Notes under the pieces: model-generated
Databases searched by the model: none
Told to the model about the DNA's origin: nothing
What the model saw: the letters and a program-made list of their open reading frames with translations, nothing else
Made by a program: the position numbers and the translations under genes
In this document: in pieces, positions 9,423-40,114 of the stretch
Numbering within the stretch: the stretch's first letter is position 1
Layout: the number at the start of each line of letters is the position of its first letter
Assembly (NCBI GenBank): GCA_945607165.1
Contig: CALYYZ010000002.1
Coordinates: 1 to 40,114 of the forward strand
From: an uncultured Ruminococcus sp.
Lineage (GTDB): Bacteria > Bacillota > Clostridia > Oscillospirales > Acutalibacteraceae
Direction: 5' to 3'
DNA length: 40,114 nucleotides

Positions 9423-10358
9423 TTATTCTGAGGTGCTTATCTTGCTGTAGTCAGCAATGTCTGTGAAGCAGATATTAAGGTCAACATCGCCCTGTATTCC
9501 GTCAACCTTGCCCTCATTGGAGTACTGCCACATTGAAAATTCATAATAGAAGTTGGGAATCGGCTGATATTCGCTGTACCAAATATCCACTCCTACGAGC
9601 TGACTGAGATCATATTTATAGTAAAGGGCTTCACTTTCCGAGTATATCATTGGGATAAATCCGAGCTGTTTTGCTCTGTTACAGAAAGCCTTGGCGCACT
9701 CTGTTACTGCCTGAGGACTGAGTCCGTCGGTTCGTGCGTTGTCATCCTCTATGGTTTCCCAATCGTAGGCAAGCGGAAAGTCAAGAGACTGTCCGTTGAG
9801 TACGCTTGCGGCATAATCGGCTTCTTCAACAGCCTCCTGAGCCGTTACAGCCTGAGAAAAGAAGTACGCTCCCACCTTGACTCCTGCCTTTTTAGCTTCC
9901 CTAATATACTGCACCGCTTTTTCGTCGGTATAAAGCTCTCCGCTGTCGCCGTAGCCTCTGCCGCCGAGCCTTATCATTGCAAACTCAATACCGCTTGATT
10001 TAACCCTGTCCCAGTCAACCTCACCACTGAAGCTTGAGATGTCTATTCCGGCAATAGAAGCATTTTTGCCGCCGTTAATATATGACTTGTATTCACCGGA
10101 TTCTGTGAAATACTCATTATTAAGGGTATTCACCGGAACTCCTGCAAGAGTCTCAAGCGTGATTTCTCCCAGCTGTGAATCATTTATTGTAAAGCTTTTC
10201 GCAGCCGACTCAGCGTGTGTGGCTGCGGCTGTTGTGTTTTCAACAGACGGTTCTGTTTCGGAAGCCTCCGAAACATGCTGAGAAGCTTCGTTTGCAGAGC
10301 AGCCTGCTACTGATGCAATAAGAGTTAAGGTCAGCGCAAGTGAGAGTATTTTTTTCAT
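9423..10358 (-). CDS. GH25 family lysozyme, lipoprotein
   Basis: Lipobox (ASVAGC); GIDISSFSGEVDWDRVKSSGIEFAMIRLGGRGYG...GAYFFSQA...DFPLAYDWE...FSMWQYSNEGKVDGIQGDVDLN. Confidence 0.93.
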   Translation of the reverse strand: MKKILSLALTLTLIASVAGCSANEASQHVSEASETEPSVENTTAAATHAESAAKSFTINDSQLGEITLETLAGVPVNTLNNEYFTESGEYKSYINGGKNASIAGIDISSFSGEVDWDRVKSSGIEFAMIRLGGRGYGDSGELYTDEKAVQYIREAKKAGVKVGAYFFSQAVTAQEAVEEADYAASVLNGQSLDFPLAYDWETIEDDNARTDGLSPQAVTECAKAFCNRAKQLGFIPMIYSESEALYYKYDLSQLVGVDIWYSEYQPIPNFYYEFSMWQYSNEGKVDGIQGDVDLNICFTDIADYSKISTSE

Positions 10359-26123: not shown

Positions 26124-26507
26124 TCAAATAATATTTCTGAATATTCCAAAGAGCAGAAGCACTGCACAAGCCGAATAAACAAGTACAGAGTCAACCTTTG
26201 AAAGAGTCTTTTTGTTGCAGCGCACATAGCTTATGCCAAGCCTTACCGCTATGTACAGAAAGAAAGGCAGCAAAAGCAGCACTGCGGGGTTTGCTTTCCA
26301 TGCCGAAGCAAAATCAAGCTGCAAAAGACTTATGCACATTCGTGAAACTCCGCAGCCCGGACATTCCAATCCTGTAATACTTTTTATAGGGCATGGAATT
26401 CCTGCGCCTAAAGCTGTACACACAACGGAATACAGCAGTCCTGCTGAAATCAGAGCCGCAATAAGCATAAGCACTCTGAACAGCCGTTTTTTCTCAGTTT
26501 GCCGCAA
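26124..26507 (-). CDS. DUF2752 membrane protein
   Basis: CPIKSITGLECPGCGVSRMCISLLQLDFASAWKANPAVLLLLP is the DUF2752 signature. Confidence 0.92.
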   Translation of the reverse strand: MRQTEKKRLFRVLMLIAALISAGLLYSVVCTALGAGIPCPIKSITGLECPGCGVSRMCISLLQLDFASAWKANPAVLLLLPFFLYIAVRLGISYVRCNKKTLSKVDSVLVYSACAVLLLFGIFRNII

Positions 26508-27174
26508 CCTTATTCAGCTCGTTTTGAATTAATGCGTAGTTTACGATAACAAATCCAAACAACGCAATCACCAAATAGACAATCGAATTATCCGACGCTG
26601 TTCCGTTGTATTTCCTGGAAATATAGTCAACCTTTTTACCGGCATTATAGAACCAATAAATTCCGTAGATGCCGCAGGTGACAAGGCTGAGCAGAAATAC
26701 AATGCCGCCTGAGGTGTCTCCCGCAGAATCACTTGCTGTGTTGAGGTCGTTTACTAAATTAACAAACCAGTAGATTCCATAGATACCGCAGGTAACAAAA
26801 CTGAGTATAATTGCAATCGCAATGTCACGGCGGGCAATGGGAGCTTTGCCGTTATTTCCCTGATAAGGAGGCTGCTGGTAGTTCGGCTGACCCTGATACT
26901 GCTGATAGGGAGGCTGCTGGTAGTTCGGCTGACCCTGATACTGCTGATAGGGAGGCTGCTGGTAGTTCGGCTGACCCTGATACTGCTGATTGGGTGCCTG
27001 TTGGTAATTGGGCTGACCCTGATACTGCTGATTGGGTGCTTGCTTGTTGTTTCTATAGTTTACAGAACCACCGTTTACGGATACCGTAGCTTCATTGTTT
27101 GAAATCGCAGCTCCGCAGAACTGGCAAAAGTTGATTCCGTCAGGATTATTATTATTGCATTTCGGACAAATCAT
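26494..27174 (-). CDS. Zinc-ribbon, PQ/Y-rich, DUF4234-type membrane protein
   Basis: MICPKCNNNNPDGINFCQFCGA zinc ribbon; YQGQPNYQQPPYQ repeats; two copies of (F)V/LTCGIYGIYWF DUF4234-like motif. Confidence 0.9.
   Translation of the reverse strand: MICPKCNNNNPDGINFCQFCGAAISNNEATVSVNGGSVNYRNNKQAPNQQYQGQPNYQQAPNQQYQGQPNYQQPPYQQYQGQPNYQQPPYQQYQGQPNYQQPPYQGNNGKAPIARRDIAIAIILSFVTCGIYGIYWFVNLVNDLNTASDSAGDTSGGIVFLLSLVTCGIYGIYWFYNAGKKVDYISRKYNGTASDNSIVYLVIALFGFVIVNYALIQNELNKVAAN
26860..27027 (-). repeat. 42-bp intragenic tandem repeat (4 copies)
   Basis: CTGATAGGGAGGCTGCTGGTAGTTCGGCTGACCCTGATACTG repeated with few changes (14-aa unit QQYQGQPNYQQPPY). Confidence 0.92.
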
Positions 27175-34565: not shown

Positions 34566-34594
34566 TTGACTTATTCGGTTATATAGTGTATGAT
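34566..34594 (+). promoter_or_regulatory. Promoter upstream of lipoprotein gene
   Basis: TTGACT-17 nt-TATGAT. Confidence 0.65.
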
Positions 34595-34637
34595 TAATAC
34601 AGCAACCGAGAGGTACATAGATTTAGGAGGAATTTTT

Positions 34638-35039
34638 ATGAAAAAAGTTGCTATTTCAGTTGTTTCAATTCTTATGGTTCTGTCACTTGCAGTTGGTATG
34701 ACTGCTTGCTTCGGCGGCACTGATCCCAAGCTCCAGAGCTATTTGGATTCAGACAAATTCAAGGATGAACTCAAGGAAATGAACGACAGCTTATCCGGAT
34801 TGGGTAAGGTTGAGGTTACTGCTCAGGGCAAAACAATGATCATGACCATGACCGTTGACGACAGTATGAAAGAGTTAATGAAACAGGCTCTTGAAGCTAA
34901 TCCCGATTCAATGACCGGTGATTTCCAGGAAGCTGCTAATCAGATGGCTGAAGAAACAGGACTTTCAGATGCAAGCTTGCAGGTTATTGTTAAGTGTGGC
35001 GGAGAAACACTGTTTGACGAAACTCTTAAGGCTGAGTAA
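34638..35039 (+). CDS. Small secreted/lipoprotein, DUF4854-like (paralog 1)
   Basis: Signal peptide ending MTAC; SYLDSDKFKDELKEMNDSL...MTMTVDDSMKELMKQAL; similar in layout to 35322-35840. Confidence 0.75.
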   Translation: MKKVAISVVSILMVLSLAVGMTACFGGTDPKLQSYLDSDKFKDELKEMNDSLSGLGKVEVTAQGKTMIMTMTVDDSMKELMKQALEANPDSMTGDFQEAANQMAEETGLSDASLQVIVKCGGETLFDETLKAE

Positions 35040-35321: not shown

Positions 35322-35840
35322 ATGAAAAAAATAAGTATTTCCGTTTTGTCGGTGCTGCTGTCAATTCTTATGTTGTTTGGACTTACTGCCTGCGGAGATG
35401 ACAGTTCTTCAAACTCGGATTTAGGTTCTTCAAACTCGGATTTAGGTTCATCAAGCGTTGAAAGCAATACGCAAAAATCTAAGCTTTCCGAATTTTTAGA
35501 GTCTGATTTGATAGCAGATCAGCTTGATACGGTAAAAGAGCAGTTTGGATCGCTTATGGACATTGATGTATACGCAGCTGATGACGCTACTCTTGTATAC
35601 GGCTTCACCTATAAAGACGAAATACCTGAGTCTCAGTTCGATGTAATGAAGGAAACATTTGAACAAGCATTTACTTCAATGTCATCTACATACGAACAGA
35701 TAGCCGCAACTGTAGGAAAGGCTTTAGACATAGATAATATGTGCGTAAGAGTAGAGTTTTTCACAAATGACGGAACCATGCTTTTTTCAAAAGATTTCTA
35801 TGCCGGCGGAGGTTCCTCGGAAAGTGGCTTTTCACTCTAA
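35322..35840 (+). CDS. Small lipoprotein, DUF4854-like (paralog 2)
   Basis: Lipobox LFGLTACG; SSNSDLG repeat linker; EFLESDLIADQLDTVKEQF...LVYGFTYKDEI domain matching paralog 1. Confidence 0.78.
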   Translation: MKKISISVLSVLLSILMLFGLTACGDDSSSNSDLGSSNSDLGSSSVESNTQKSKLSEFLESDLIADQLDTVKEQFGSLMDIDVYAADDATLVYGFTYKDEIPESQFDVMKETFEQAFTSMSSTYEQIAATVGKALDIDNMCVRVEFFTNDGTMLFSKDFYAGGGSSESGFSL

Positions 35841-35941: not shown

Positions 35942-37411
35942 TTACTGTTTATTCTCGGCAAGTATCTCTGAGATAAGCTCTCGCTCGTCCATATGATACT
36001 TAACTCCCTTGATTTCCTGATAATCTTCGTGTCCCTTTCCGGCAAGAACAATAATATCTCCGCTTTGTGCATTGTTAATGCAATATCTGATTGCGTCCTT
36101 TCGGTTTGGCACAACAACATATTTTCCGTCTGTCTTGGCGATGCCTGTCTTAATATCCTCGATAATATCCATAACATCCTCAAAGCGTGAGTTGTCTTCG
36201 GTTATTACCGACAGGTCGCTCAGTCTGCCTGATACCTCTCCCATTTCGTAGCGGCGAACCTTCGGACGGTTGCCGCCGGCTCCGAACATAGTTATGAGCC
36301 TGTTCGGATTATATTGTCTGAGAGTAGAAAGCACATTTTCCATTGACAGTGCATTGTGAGCATAATCAATAAGCAGGGTGTAATCTCCGGGCACCTTAAC
36401 AGGCTCAACTCTGCCCTTTACACTTGCGTTTTTTAAGCCGCTTATGATTGCCTTGTCGTCTATTCCGAAGAAGGAAACGGCACAGATTGCGGCAAGCGCA
36501 TTGTATACATTAAATTTGCCGGGAATACCAACCTCTGCGCTCAGGCTTTTTATTCCCTCTGTTTCAAACTTAACACCTATAAATCCGCCGTCTGATATCA
36601 GGCGGTCATTTTTTGCTGTAAGGTCGGCTTTTTCGGAGAAGCCGTAGGTGAGTACCTTGCCGCAAAAGTCCTTGGTAACCTCGCTGTATTTTTCATCGTC
36701 AATATTAGCAGCGGCTTTTCTGCACTGACGGAATAAAAGACTCTTGCAGTAAAGATATTCGGCCAAATCCTTGTGTTCCACACCACCTATGTGGTCGTCC
36801 GAGAAGTTTGTGAAGATTCCTGCGTCAAAGGTAATTCCCTCAAGACGGTGATGCTTCAGACCGATTGACGAGGCTTCAATCACCATAGCTTTGCAGCCGG
36901 AATTTATCATATCTCGCATAGCTTTTTGAATCTCATAGGATTCCGGGGTGGTGTTGTTGGTTTTATATGTTTTGCCGCCGTAAACAATGCCAAGCGTTCC
37001 TATAGTGCCGGTCTTTATTCCAGACTGTTCAAATATTTCGGCAATCAGGGCGGTGGTTGTAGTCTTGCCCTTTGTGCCGGTAACTGCAACGGTTTTAAGC
37101 TCATCGGCGGGATGACCGAAAAACTCTACGCTCATAAGAGCAAGTGCAAGCCTTGTGTCGGCGGTTTTGATGATTGCGACATTATCGGGAAGTTCAGAGT
37201 AATCAAGCTCGTCACTAATGATGAGTGCCGAAGCACCTTTTTCAACAGCCGACTGTGCATAAAGATGACCGTCAGAGGTATAGCCCTTCAGACAAATAAA
37301 TACAGTATCTTTTGTGACCTTGCGTGAATCATAGACAAGGTCGCATATCTCAGGATTACCGTCCTTTATAACCGTATATTCTGTTGTACTCAAAATATCC
37401 TTTAACCTCAT
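35942..37411 (-). CDS. murE: UDP-N-acetylmuramyl-tripeptide synthetase (Mur ligase)
   Basis: AVTGTKGKTTTTALIAEIFEQSG, TNNTTPESYEIQ, MVIEASSIGLKHHRLEGI, FTNFSDDHIG, DYAHNALSMENVL. Confidence 0.93.
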   Translation of the reverse strand: MRLKDILSTTEYTVIKDGNPEICDLVYDSRKVTKDTVFICLKGYTSDGHLYAQSAVEKGASALIISDELDYSELPDNVAIIKTADTRLALALMSVEFFGHPADELKTVAVTGTKGKTTTTALIAEIFEQSGIKTGTIGTLGIVYGGKTYKTNNTTPESYEIQKAMRDMINSGCKAMVIEASSIGLKHHRLEGITFDAGIFTNFSDDHIGGVEHKDLAEYLYCKSLLFRQCRKAAANIDDEKYSEVTKDFCGKVLTYGFSEKADLTAKNDRLISDGGFIGVKFETEGIKSLSAEVGIPGKFNVYNALAAICAVSFFGIDDKAIISGLKNASVKGRVEPVKVPGDYTLLIDYAHNALSMENVLSTLRQYNPNRLITMFGAGGNRPKVRRYEMGEVSGRLSDLSVITEDNSRFEDVMDIIEDIKTGIAKTDGKYVVVPNRKDAIRYCINNAQSGDIIVLAGKGHEDYQEIKGVKYHMDERELISEILAENKQ

Positions 37412-37963
37412 AGCAGTGCTTCCTTTCATAATTTATGATGTATGGAACTGCTGACAATTCCAAATGTTTGTTCAGTAAGCGTTATACATCTTAATTATAC
37501 CAATGTTTGCCTGAATTTACAACTAAATTACAATAATCAAAGAAAATATTGTTTCAGAAATATCCGCAGGGAACCTTCATACAGGAGGTTTTATTGTCTG
37601 AGGTGTGATTTATTCGGCGCTTTATTAGGAAAAATCTGAATATATCTGTCATTAAGGGAACATTCCACATTCACCCGGTAATCACAGAATATATGAAAAT
37701 TGCTTAATTTGTTATTTTTTACCAAAAAAAATAAAAATAATACCGATACGGATAGATTTAAAAGTGTATGTGTTGAAGAATTCGGCAAATATTTTTGTCA
37801 AAAGCTAATCCGATTGTTAATAATTACCAATAACAGATTTGTGATTTTAAACAAAAATTGATACATACTTTTGTAAGTAAAATGAAAAAGTGGTTATATT
37901 CTTGTCATAATGTACAAAAAAATTAAAGAAAATTAACAATGTAGATAAAAAGTACAAAGGTAG

Positions 37964-37992
37964 TTGAAATTTCATTGTATTTTTGATATTAT
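37964..37992 (+). promoter_or_regulatory. Promoter upstream of ABC binding protein
   Basis: TTGAAA-17 nt-TATTAT. Confidence 0.55.
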
Positions 37993-38089
37993 TTATGTAG
38001 ATGAACTGAGGTGCATTTGTACATTTACACCAAAGTTCTTCGGTGTCCGAAAAGGAAAAAATATTTTTTTAGAAAGAGGGATTATTCCG

Positions 38090-39421
38090 ATGAAAAAAAT
38101 TATTGCCATTCTTTTGGCAGGAATGATGACTGCTACTGCTCTTGCAGGCTGCGGCGGCGGTGGCAGCGAGTCAGGTTCAGGCAAAGAGTCAAGTGGTGGC
38201 GGCGAATCTTCAGCTGCCGGTATTGAAGGCTCCAAGGTTGACCTTTCTTACTTTGGCGAAGAGGACAACATTAAGCTTAAGGTTTGGACTCCTGACGCTT
38301 CCGTAAATCTTATTAAAAAGCAGGTTGAAGAGTTTAAGAAGCTTTATTCCGATAAGAAGATTGATATTCAGGTTATTGCACAGGGCGAGAAAGATGCCGC
38401 TACTCAGGTTCTCAACGACGCTTCTGCTGCTGCCGATGTATTCAGCTTCCCCAGTGACCAGCTCAACGACCTTGTTGACGCAGGCGTACTTGCTCCCGTT
38501 GCTTTTGGAGATCAGGTTACTGCTAATAACGATCCTGCGACAATTAAGGCCGGCACAATGAAGGATAAGGACGGCAAAGACACACTCTACGCTTATCCTC
38601 AGACAAACGACAACGGCTACTATCTTGTATATGATAACACTGTTGTTACAGCTGACGACGCTAAGACTCTCGAGGGTACACTCGAGGCTTGTAAGAAGGC
38701 CGGCAAGAAGTTCATTATGAACGCAGGCGACGGCTTCTATGCTTGTACATTTGCTTTCACAGCAGGTGTGCAGGTTGACGGTCTTGAAGATGACGGTATT
38801 ACACAGAAGTTTAAGGATTATGACGAGGACGAAGCTATAGCTACACTTCAGGCTTTTGGTAAGCTCATCAAAAAGTACAAGGGTACATTTACTTCACTCG
38901 ATGTTGCTAACATTTCATCAGGCTTCAACACAGGCACATGCGGCGCAGGTATTGACGGTTCTTGGGACACAGCTTCTAATAAGAAGGCTCTCGGCGAGAA
39001 GTTCGGCGCAGCTAAGCTTCCCACAATCAATGTAAACGGCACAGACAAGCAGCTTATTTCAATATTCGGTTATAAGTATGTTGGTATCAACGCTTCTTCT
39101 AAGTTCCCCCGTTCAGCTCAGATCCTTGCTTTCTATCTCACAGGTGAGGAGTGCCAGCTCCAGAAGGCAGAGGAACTCGGTTGGGGTCCCTCAAATGTCA
39201 ATGTCCAGAAGAACAAGGTTGTAACAGAGAGTGCTGTTCTTACAGCTATCGCTGCTCAGGCTGAGAATGCTTGTGTTCAGGTTAACATCGCTAAAACATT
39301 CTGGAATCCTATGGCTAACCTCGGTAACACAATTATCAAGGACGACTGGAATCCCGATAATTTAGATAAGACCAAGGAGCTTCTCAACGATACTGTAAAG
39401 AATATCCGTGACGAAGGCTGA
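38090..39421 (+). CDS. Extracellular solute-binding lipoprotein (carbohydrate ABC transporter)
   Basis: MKKIIAILLAGMMTATALAGCGGGG lipobox; family-1 SBP layout (LKVWTPDASVNLIKKQVEEFKKLY, FSFPSDQLNDLVDAGVLAPV). Confidence 0.93.
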   Translation: MKKIIAILLAGMMTATALAGCGGGGSESGSGKESSGGGESSAAGIEGSKVDLSYFGEEDNIKLKVWTPDASVNLIKKQVEEFKKLYSDKKIDIQVIAQGEKDAATQVLNDASAAADVFSFPSDQLNDLVDAGVLAPVAFGDQVTANNDPATIKAGTMKDKDGKDTLYAYPQTNDNGYYLVYDNTVVTADDAKTLEGTLEACKKAGKKFIMNAGDGFYACTFAFTAGVQVDGLEDDGITQKFKDYDEDEAIATLQAFGKLIKKYKGTFTSLDVANISSGFNTGTCGAGIDGSWDTASNKKALGEKFGAAKLPTINVNGTDKQLISIFGYKYVGINASSKFPRSAQILAFYLTGEECQLQKAEELGWGPSNVNVQKNKVVTESAVLTAIAAQAENACVQVNIAKTFWNPMANLGNTIIKDDWNPDNLDKTKELLNDTVKNIRDEG

Positions 39422-39458
39422 TTGGCTTAAAACTGATTTAAAAAATTAACGGCTTGAT

Positions 39459-39487
39459 CGGGGTGCCTTGCCGAGCAGGGTACCCCG
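39459..39487 (+). other. Intercistronic hairpin 3' of the binding protein gene
   Basis: CGGGGTGCC...GGTACCCCG, 9-bp stem with one G-U; followed by A-rich sequence, not a U-tract. Confidence 0.75.
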
Positions 39488-39497
39488 AAAAAACGAA

Positions 39498-39593
39498 TTT
39501 GTATTTTCCAAGATGTATCCCAATGGGATGCGGTACACCAAACGAATAATGTTCTTCTGGAAAATACAAAAGGGTATTATTAGTTTGGTGTAT
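39498..39593 (+). other. Interleaved inverted repeats A-B-A'-B' (structured intercistronic RNA candidate)
   Basis: A TTTGTATTTTCCA (39498-39510) / A' TGGAAAATACAAA (39558-39570); B TACACCAAACGAATAAT (39534-39550) / B' ATTATTAGTTTGGTGTA (39576-39592). Confidence 0.85.
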
Positions 39594-39625
39594 GAGAATT
39601 TCGCAGACTTATAAGGAGAGCTATT

Positions 39626-40114
39626 ATGACATATGTTGAATACAAACAGCTCAATCCGTTTCAAAGGTTTGCTCACAACTTCAAAAAATTTATCTTAAAT
39701 GTTCCTAAGGCTGTTGCTCATTTCTTTGTTGCATTAGGCAAAGGTATAGTTGGATTTTTTGTTGGTATAGGCAAGGGCTTTGCTAATTACTTTACAACCT
39801 TCGTAAAAGGTGACTGGGCTACCAAACTTTCCTATTTGATTTTCGGTATTGGTGATATTCACAAGGGCAAGTACTACAAGGGTATTTTGTATTTCCTCTC
39901 TGAGGTGCTGTACGCTTGCTATATGGTATTCTTCGGTTGGGGATTTTTGTCAAAGTTTACCACCCTGGGTGTTGTTGCGAAAAAGACAGTTCCCGATGGT
40001 ATTTTCACCAAAACCGTATTTGTAGATAACTCGATGCAGATATTGCTTTATTCGGTAGTATCAATAGTTATCACAATAGTTGTATTCGCAGTTTATATTT
40101 CAAACATAAAAGAC
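39626..40114 (+). CDS. ABC transporter permease (MalF-like), partial
   Basis: Open from ATG after GGAGAG to the window end: MTYVEYKQLNPFQRFAHNFKKF...KLSYLIFGIGDIHKGKYYKGILYFLSEVLYACYMVFFGWGFLSKF; follows the SBP gene. Confidence 0.82.
   Translation, partial: MTYVEYKQLNPFQRFAHNFKKFILNVPKAVAHFFVALGKGIVGFFVGIGKGFANYFTTFVKGDWATKLSYLIFGIGDIHKGKYYKGILYFLSEVLYACYMVFFGWGFLSKFTTLGVVAKKTVPDGIFTKTVFVDNSMQILLYSVVSIVITIVVFAVYISNIKD

Follow-up and report, generated by a model that had tools for sequence, protein, structure and literature searches.

What do two long inverted repeats that interlock as A-B-A'-B' do between the genes for a sugar-binding protein (SBP) and its permease? Binding-protein excess in ABC importers is a standing question, to which static intergenic hairpins are the known answer; in Escherichia coli, intercistronic REP hairpins, which are repeated mobile hairpins, lie between malE and malF. 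The structure studied here is likewise intercistronic and at the same gene pair, but it is unique in its genome and interleaved. The window, i.e. the whole 40,114-nt stretch of DNA analysed, holds an ORF for a malE-like sugar-binding lipoprotein (38090..39421, on the + strand like all the operon and spacer features below; SBP_bac_8, Pfam PF13416, E 1.1e-27), followed by the N-terminal part of a malF-like permease (39626..40114) that continues beyond the window end and was assigned by alignment to full-length homologous ORFs matching BPD_transp_1. Full-length malF relatives are followed by a second permease and then a GH13 alpha-amylase lipoprotein; judged by this gene content, the operon is of the maltodextrin type, malE-malF-malG-alpha-amylase. 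The named relatives are Ruminococcus bromii YE282, 5AMG and ATCC 27255 and Ruminococcus sp. FMBCY1, and the window's genome therefore belongs to the R. bromii genus, where the permease is present in 152 of 161 searched genomes. In the gut, R. bromii has a keystone role in the degradation of resistant starch, and the malEFG and alpha-amylase importer is likely central to its uptake of starch products.

Both repeats were recovered where the earlier note had read them, in exactly the interleaved order at 39498-39593. Helix A, found by inverted-repeat search and traced by covariation, joins A (39498..39510) to A' (39558..39570) through 13 nt that are, as claimed, 100% complementary; A' lies within the loop of hairpin B. 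The second pair is equally real: B (39534..39559, conserved core CACCAAACGAATAATG at 39536-39551) and B' (39567..39592, core TATTATTAGTTTGGTG at 39575-39590), identified by inverted-repeat search and conservation, have arms of 26 nt that are 81% complementary, with 7 nt between them. At its two flanks A' runs into the extended arms, sharing 2 nt with the 3' end of B and 4 nt with the 5' end of B'. Folding places a small 7-bp hairpin (39515..39531) in the A-B linker of the window species; it is not conserved in the rumen clade, where this linker is 0-5 nt. The element region has a fold z of -5.6, with none of 200 shuffles equally stable, and two crossing helices as strong as these were reached by 0/100 dinucleotide shuffles of the spacer (z = -5.0). 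Because the element ranks second in crossing-pair strength among 1340 sliding 120-nt sub-windows of the 40-kb window, this sequence taken by itself is suggestive at most.

Comparison with relatives settles that the element is real and not a product of chance. We extracted and compared 130 homologous malE-malF spacers. Type I, the window's form, is found in 54 species as CACCAAACGAATAATG ... CATTATTAGTTTGGTG with crossing A/A', and about 25 more spacers carry diverged forms (20 type II and five type III'), so that the conservation in homologous loci by which the earlier note proposed to judge the element is there; we assigned the types by pattern and visual inspection, and the clade tree gives only a poor placement to spacers that come with little of the binding-protein coding sequence. 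Types II and III' appear homologous to type I, since CGTTATC/GATAACG persists in A and AATAATG/ATTATT in B. In a pattern scan the B core occurs at one place per genome, always the malE-malF junction, and a repeat or regulon element was rejected for this reason; stray matches with two mismatches elsewhere lack a paired second arm. The element has been lost in several close relatives (L021, L031, L032) and is thus not essential. Nothing in the window matched Rfam 15 at gathering score (the best weak match, psbA 3'UTR, scored 21.6 bits vs 48.4), and a covariance model of B, run with strict filters on 394 genomes across the order, few of them from this genus, matched the window's own genome alone. 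Around related permeases from the family's other genera, inspection by eye revealed a GC-rich stem and no interleaved element. This is a new conserved RNA element lacking an Rfam family, at a junction known for static hairpins.

Pairing was then judged from the changes among spacers. Whole-spacer MAFFT alignment misplaced helix A, and blocks were therefore aligned by structure. In that alignment 94% of helix A cells are paired and 10 of its 11 pairs show compensatory changes, counts that are inflated by selection of the A blocks for good pairing; none of 500 shuffles equalled any measure, and sliding the partner brought pairing to 33-60%. Because of that selection we ran an alignment-free swap test, in which the best duplex of a spacer's own upstream and inner segments is compared with that of segments exchanged between species. 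When each distinct A strand was represented once, helix A scored -15.2 kcal/mol for cognate vs -11.3 for permuted segments (p<=0.0002), phylogeny being only partly accounted for in this as in all our covariation and swap tests. On a coding-sequence tree, pairs A5_4 and A5_5 changed on both sides on the same three branches (p 0.001 each), and the window species has three adjacent double changes in A, GTA/TAC where most have ACG/CGT. Helix B is 97.7% paired, a stem of 22-27 bp that is near-invariant in type I and in which G-U pairs are common; in the sister group with type II its arms differ widely yet match (cognate -20.4 vs -16.0 kcal/mol, p<=0.0004). The covariation for which the earlier note had proposed to look is thus strong in helix A, and in helix B it appears in the sister group, with conservation in the window's own. 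The interleaved A-B-A'-B' order of an H-type pseudoknot is backed by covariation.

The rumen clade adds a third helix. There, the segment directly after B (e.g. TTTATTATA) pairs with the segment directly after B' (TATAATAAA), giving the topology A-B-C-A'-B'-C', in which C crosses both A and B and uses part of A'. Helix C also passed the swap test (cognate -12.9 vs -9.6, p<=0.0002) and, by eye, recurs whole on the far side of insertions that follow B' in L058 and L061; the window's species lacks it. Neither helix C in relatives nor the depth of conservation figured in the earlier note. In type II the choice between structures is easier to see: beside an invariant AGGGGAACAG, an alternative hairpin, P2, lies within A and takes as its 3' strand what is also the 5' strand of B (P2 was read by eye from the alignment). 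Type III, in a separate sister clade, is a compact A-B-A'-B' of different sequence, TACTGTATC...GCGTCTGTG-GATACAGTA...CACAGACGC, with compensations in L122 and L138 and a B swap test at p<=0.007.

Can A and B exist at once? In most rumen species the A-to-B linker (L1) is 0-5 nt and the A'-to-B' linker (L3) 3-5 nt; helix A measures 11-16 bp and helix B 22-27 bp. With linkers this short beside helices this long, full coexistence is unlikely, and a classical H-type pseudoknot of such helices would not be sterically reasonable; side-by-side packing of the two is possible. Energy models of 50 species show the helices in competition. Without B', the modelled nascent RNA forms A at next to no penalty (median 0.2 kcal/mol, reaching 9.6 in single species); in the full RNA with B', the balance tips to B, the median advantage being 10.3 kcal/mol (range 2.5-22; 4.8 in the window). 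Ordered folding, A then B, is therefore predicted. The earlier note had preferred mutually exclusive conformations over a pseudoknot, and covariation together with the 0-5-nt linkers gives that preference structural support; the exclusivity itself we infer. As B is so much more stable in the model, A may be a brief intermediate with no function of its own.

The output of such a switch was sought in the sequences around it. Folding and a stem scan revealed a GC-rich stem-loop after malE (14 bp, 3-nt loop) at 39458..39488; the earlier note had rightly placed a hairpin just upstream of the element, and its limits of 39459-39487 are one base short at each end. Such a stem follows soon after the malE stop in almost all spacers inspected by eye, and it is the strongest hairpin in 95 of 129 spacers by automatic scan, hairpin B being stronger in most others. 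Comparable GC stems recur in further spacers of the genus and, beyond it, in additional genera of the family. Examined as an internal intrinsic terminator of an SBP operon, the window's stem has the GC-rich helix directly after the SBP gene and runs into an A-rich tail with no U-rich tract; among the 129 spacers, at least five T in the next eight positions follow the stem in seven. No intrinsic terminator was found on the + strand in 37400-40114, and the Shine-Dalgarno is predicted to be equally exposed in either state (0.12 vs 0.11), so Shine-Dalgarno sequestration was set aside. Of the visible expression platforms sought, i.e. a terminator or Shine-Dalgarno sequestration, neither was found, and there is accordingly no support for transcription attenuation by an intrinsic terminator or for direct blocking of ribosomes. 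The remaining output is likely RNA processing or decay, in line with what has been described for Clostridia SBP-permease spacers (PMC9045158; PMC4423207). RNase III and RNase J are both encoded in the window's genome. Two further candidates were dropped: an upstream ORF in the spacer, whose frames by eye are not conserved, and a CsrA target, CsrA being absent from 25 genomes of the genus. The main text of R. bromii transcriptome papers offered no usable malE/malF levels.

The element is probably genuine, an RNA switch not described before by which the amount of permease relative to binding protein is set; its structure is well supported and its function is what we infer. We would assign a probability of about one half to the following reading, a cis-acting two-state RNA in the malE-malF mRNA. 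In the nascent RNA, A would pair with A' first; once B' emerges, the longer hairpin B (22-27 bp) would be able to displace A, the full helices being taken as mutually exclusive. The upstream GC hairpin would shield the 3' end of the malE message, and the persistence of A or B would decide processing or decay of the malF part of the transcript. Hairpin B, at about two turns of double helix, might be cut by an RNase III-type enzyme or might hold up exonucleases. The malE:malF ratio would thereby be set, or perhaps adjusted to a signal. More tentatively, and at odds clearly below even, the element may represent a new class of intercistronic switch, in which two to three crossing hairpins (A-B-A'-B', or A-B-C-A'-B'-C' in rumen species) hand over co-transcriptionally and set the binding protein:permease ratio of the maltodextrin importer of the R. 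bromii group, perhaps in response to a metabolite.

Other readings of the same helices were weighed. One, rather unlikely, is a true pseudoknot in which A and B coexist and C is a third crossing helix, a compact knot that would block exonucleases or ribosomes between the cistrons. The crossing pairs do all covary, the 9-10-bp stems and short loops of the type III clade (L115, L123, L131 and others) make a compact H-type geometry, and the long L2 of type I might permit side-by-side helices; however, L1 is 0 nt in many species with L3 at 3-5 nt, it would be topologically hard for a long nascent RNA to thread a closed loop for more than one turn, and the use of part of A' by helix C in the rumen clade also speaks against the knot. 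An arrangement in which hairpin B alone matters, as a long, static hairpin that serves RNA processing or protects a 5' end, with A incidental, would explain why B dominates the predicted fold and is the most conserved sequence, but it seems quite improbable given that A is compensated on both sides in nearly every pair, including the GTA/TAC for ACG/CGT of the window species.

It is unlikely, too, that the element senses a ligand or protein as a riboswitch would, with A closing an aptamer and B serving as the expression platform. Type II lends itself most to this idea: its A, GTTATC/GATAACG, adjoins the invariant purine-rich AGGGGAACAG with the P2 hairpin inside, the 3' strand of P2 is the 5' strand of B, and type III' carries a similar AGGGGAGCA. 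The purine-rich strand is absent from the window's type I, however, where the conserved letters lie in helix B; the element occupies one locus per genome in one genus, and CsrA, whose target the AACAGGAUAAC stretch resembles, is missing from the genomes noted above. The invariant purine strand of type II may nonetheless be the best lead for a ligand or protein signal. Most improbable of all is an element acting as DNA, whether an operator palindrome, a small mobile repeat or an invertible segment. B on its own is a conserved inverted repeat with near-invariant letters, but it sits always at the same single junction, the distance between its arms varies from 23 to 56 nt with no helical phasing, its G-U pairs are common, and A covaries as RNA pairs do.

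The two-state reading has partial precedents. In cellulolytic Clostridia, stem-loops that follow SBP genes serve as internal terminators (Wu et al. 2022, PMC9045158), and SBP-permease stem-loops set stoichiometry in related Clostridia (PMC9045158). Ours share with these the SBP-to-permease junction, the long GC-rich stem after the SBP gene and the likely purpose of SBP > permease; they differ in the A-rich rather than U-rich sequence that follows the stem and in the second, interleaved two-state element, and that paper mentions no pseudoknot or antitermination. In the cip-cel operon, where selective RNA processing and stabilization operates, intergenic stem-loops determine how abundant the transcripts are relative to one another (Xu et al. 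2015, PMC4423207). Intergenic stem-loops within an operon are common to both cases, with processing in the malE-malF spacer presumed by us; those of cip-cel are described as static, whereas conserved crossing helices here imply alternative structures. An intercistronic structure tuning the binding protein:permease ratio would fit this Clostridia SBP-operon literature (PMC9045158, PMC4423207). With riboswitches and attenuators the element shares two conserved, probably incompatible helices with sequence in common and, in type II, an aptamer-like invariant purine strand; it differs in lying inside an operon, at a single locus, with no terminator or Shine-Dalgarno sequestration seen. A conserved two-state RNA at the malE-malF junction, if true, would add a switchable layer to the static hairpins, and makes a testable prediction in the sequenced strains ATCC 27255, YE282, 5AMG and FMBCY1. 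The covariation set of about 80 species is a ready model for a new RNA family.

We note some further forms and sites. In the type II spacers L070-L085, L088, L093, L094 and L134-L142, an invariant AGGGGAACAGGATAACG lies opposite GTTATC, giving an aptamer-like internal loop adjoining P2. The type III spacers L115, L117, L119, L120, L122, L123, L126, L128, L131, L132 and L138 carry an interleaved element that comes near the textbook H-type pseudoknot. In type IV spacers (L106, L112, L101), ATGCAAGTA and TACTTGCAT form a hairpin with the loop TTGCTTCC, a complement of the malF Shine-Dalgarno GGAAG; sequestration of the ribosome site by this loop is possible. The occurrence of types I-IV at one junction therefore indicates an interleaved RNA of several forms, or one element drifted beyond recognition.

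In the window species, the hairpin B loop segment TTCTTCT (39552-39558) is complementary, allowing G-U, to the malF Shine-Dalgarno AGGAGAG (39614-39620); this is the best partner found for that loop, as a candidate, unproven pairing. Near the malF start, GAGCT (39618-39622) pairs with AGCTC (39648-39652), and on average in type I the malF Shine-Dalgarno is predicted to be mostly paired. Other strong crossing pairs in the window, at about 26281-26400 and 10191-10310, are CTGCGGGGTTT/AAACTCCGCAG with TTCCATGCC/GGCATGGAA and TCGCAGCCG/TGGCTGCGG with CTCAGCGTGT/ACATGCTGAG; these may be chance. Direct repeats GCTGCTGGTAGT..TCGGCTGA at 26821-27031 pair with one another, and upstream of malE two tandem lipoprotein-like genes belong to the unknown family DUF4854 (34590-35036 and 35322-35837).
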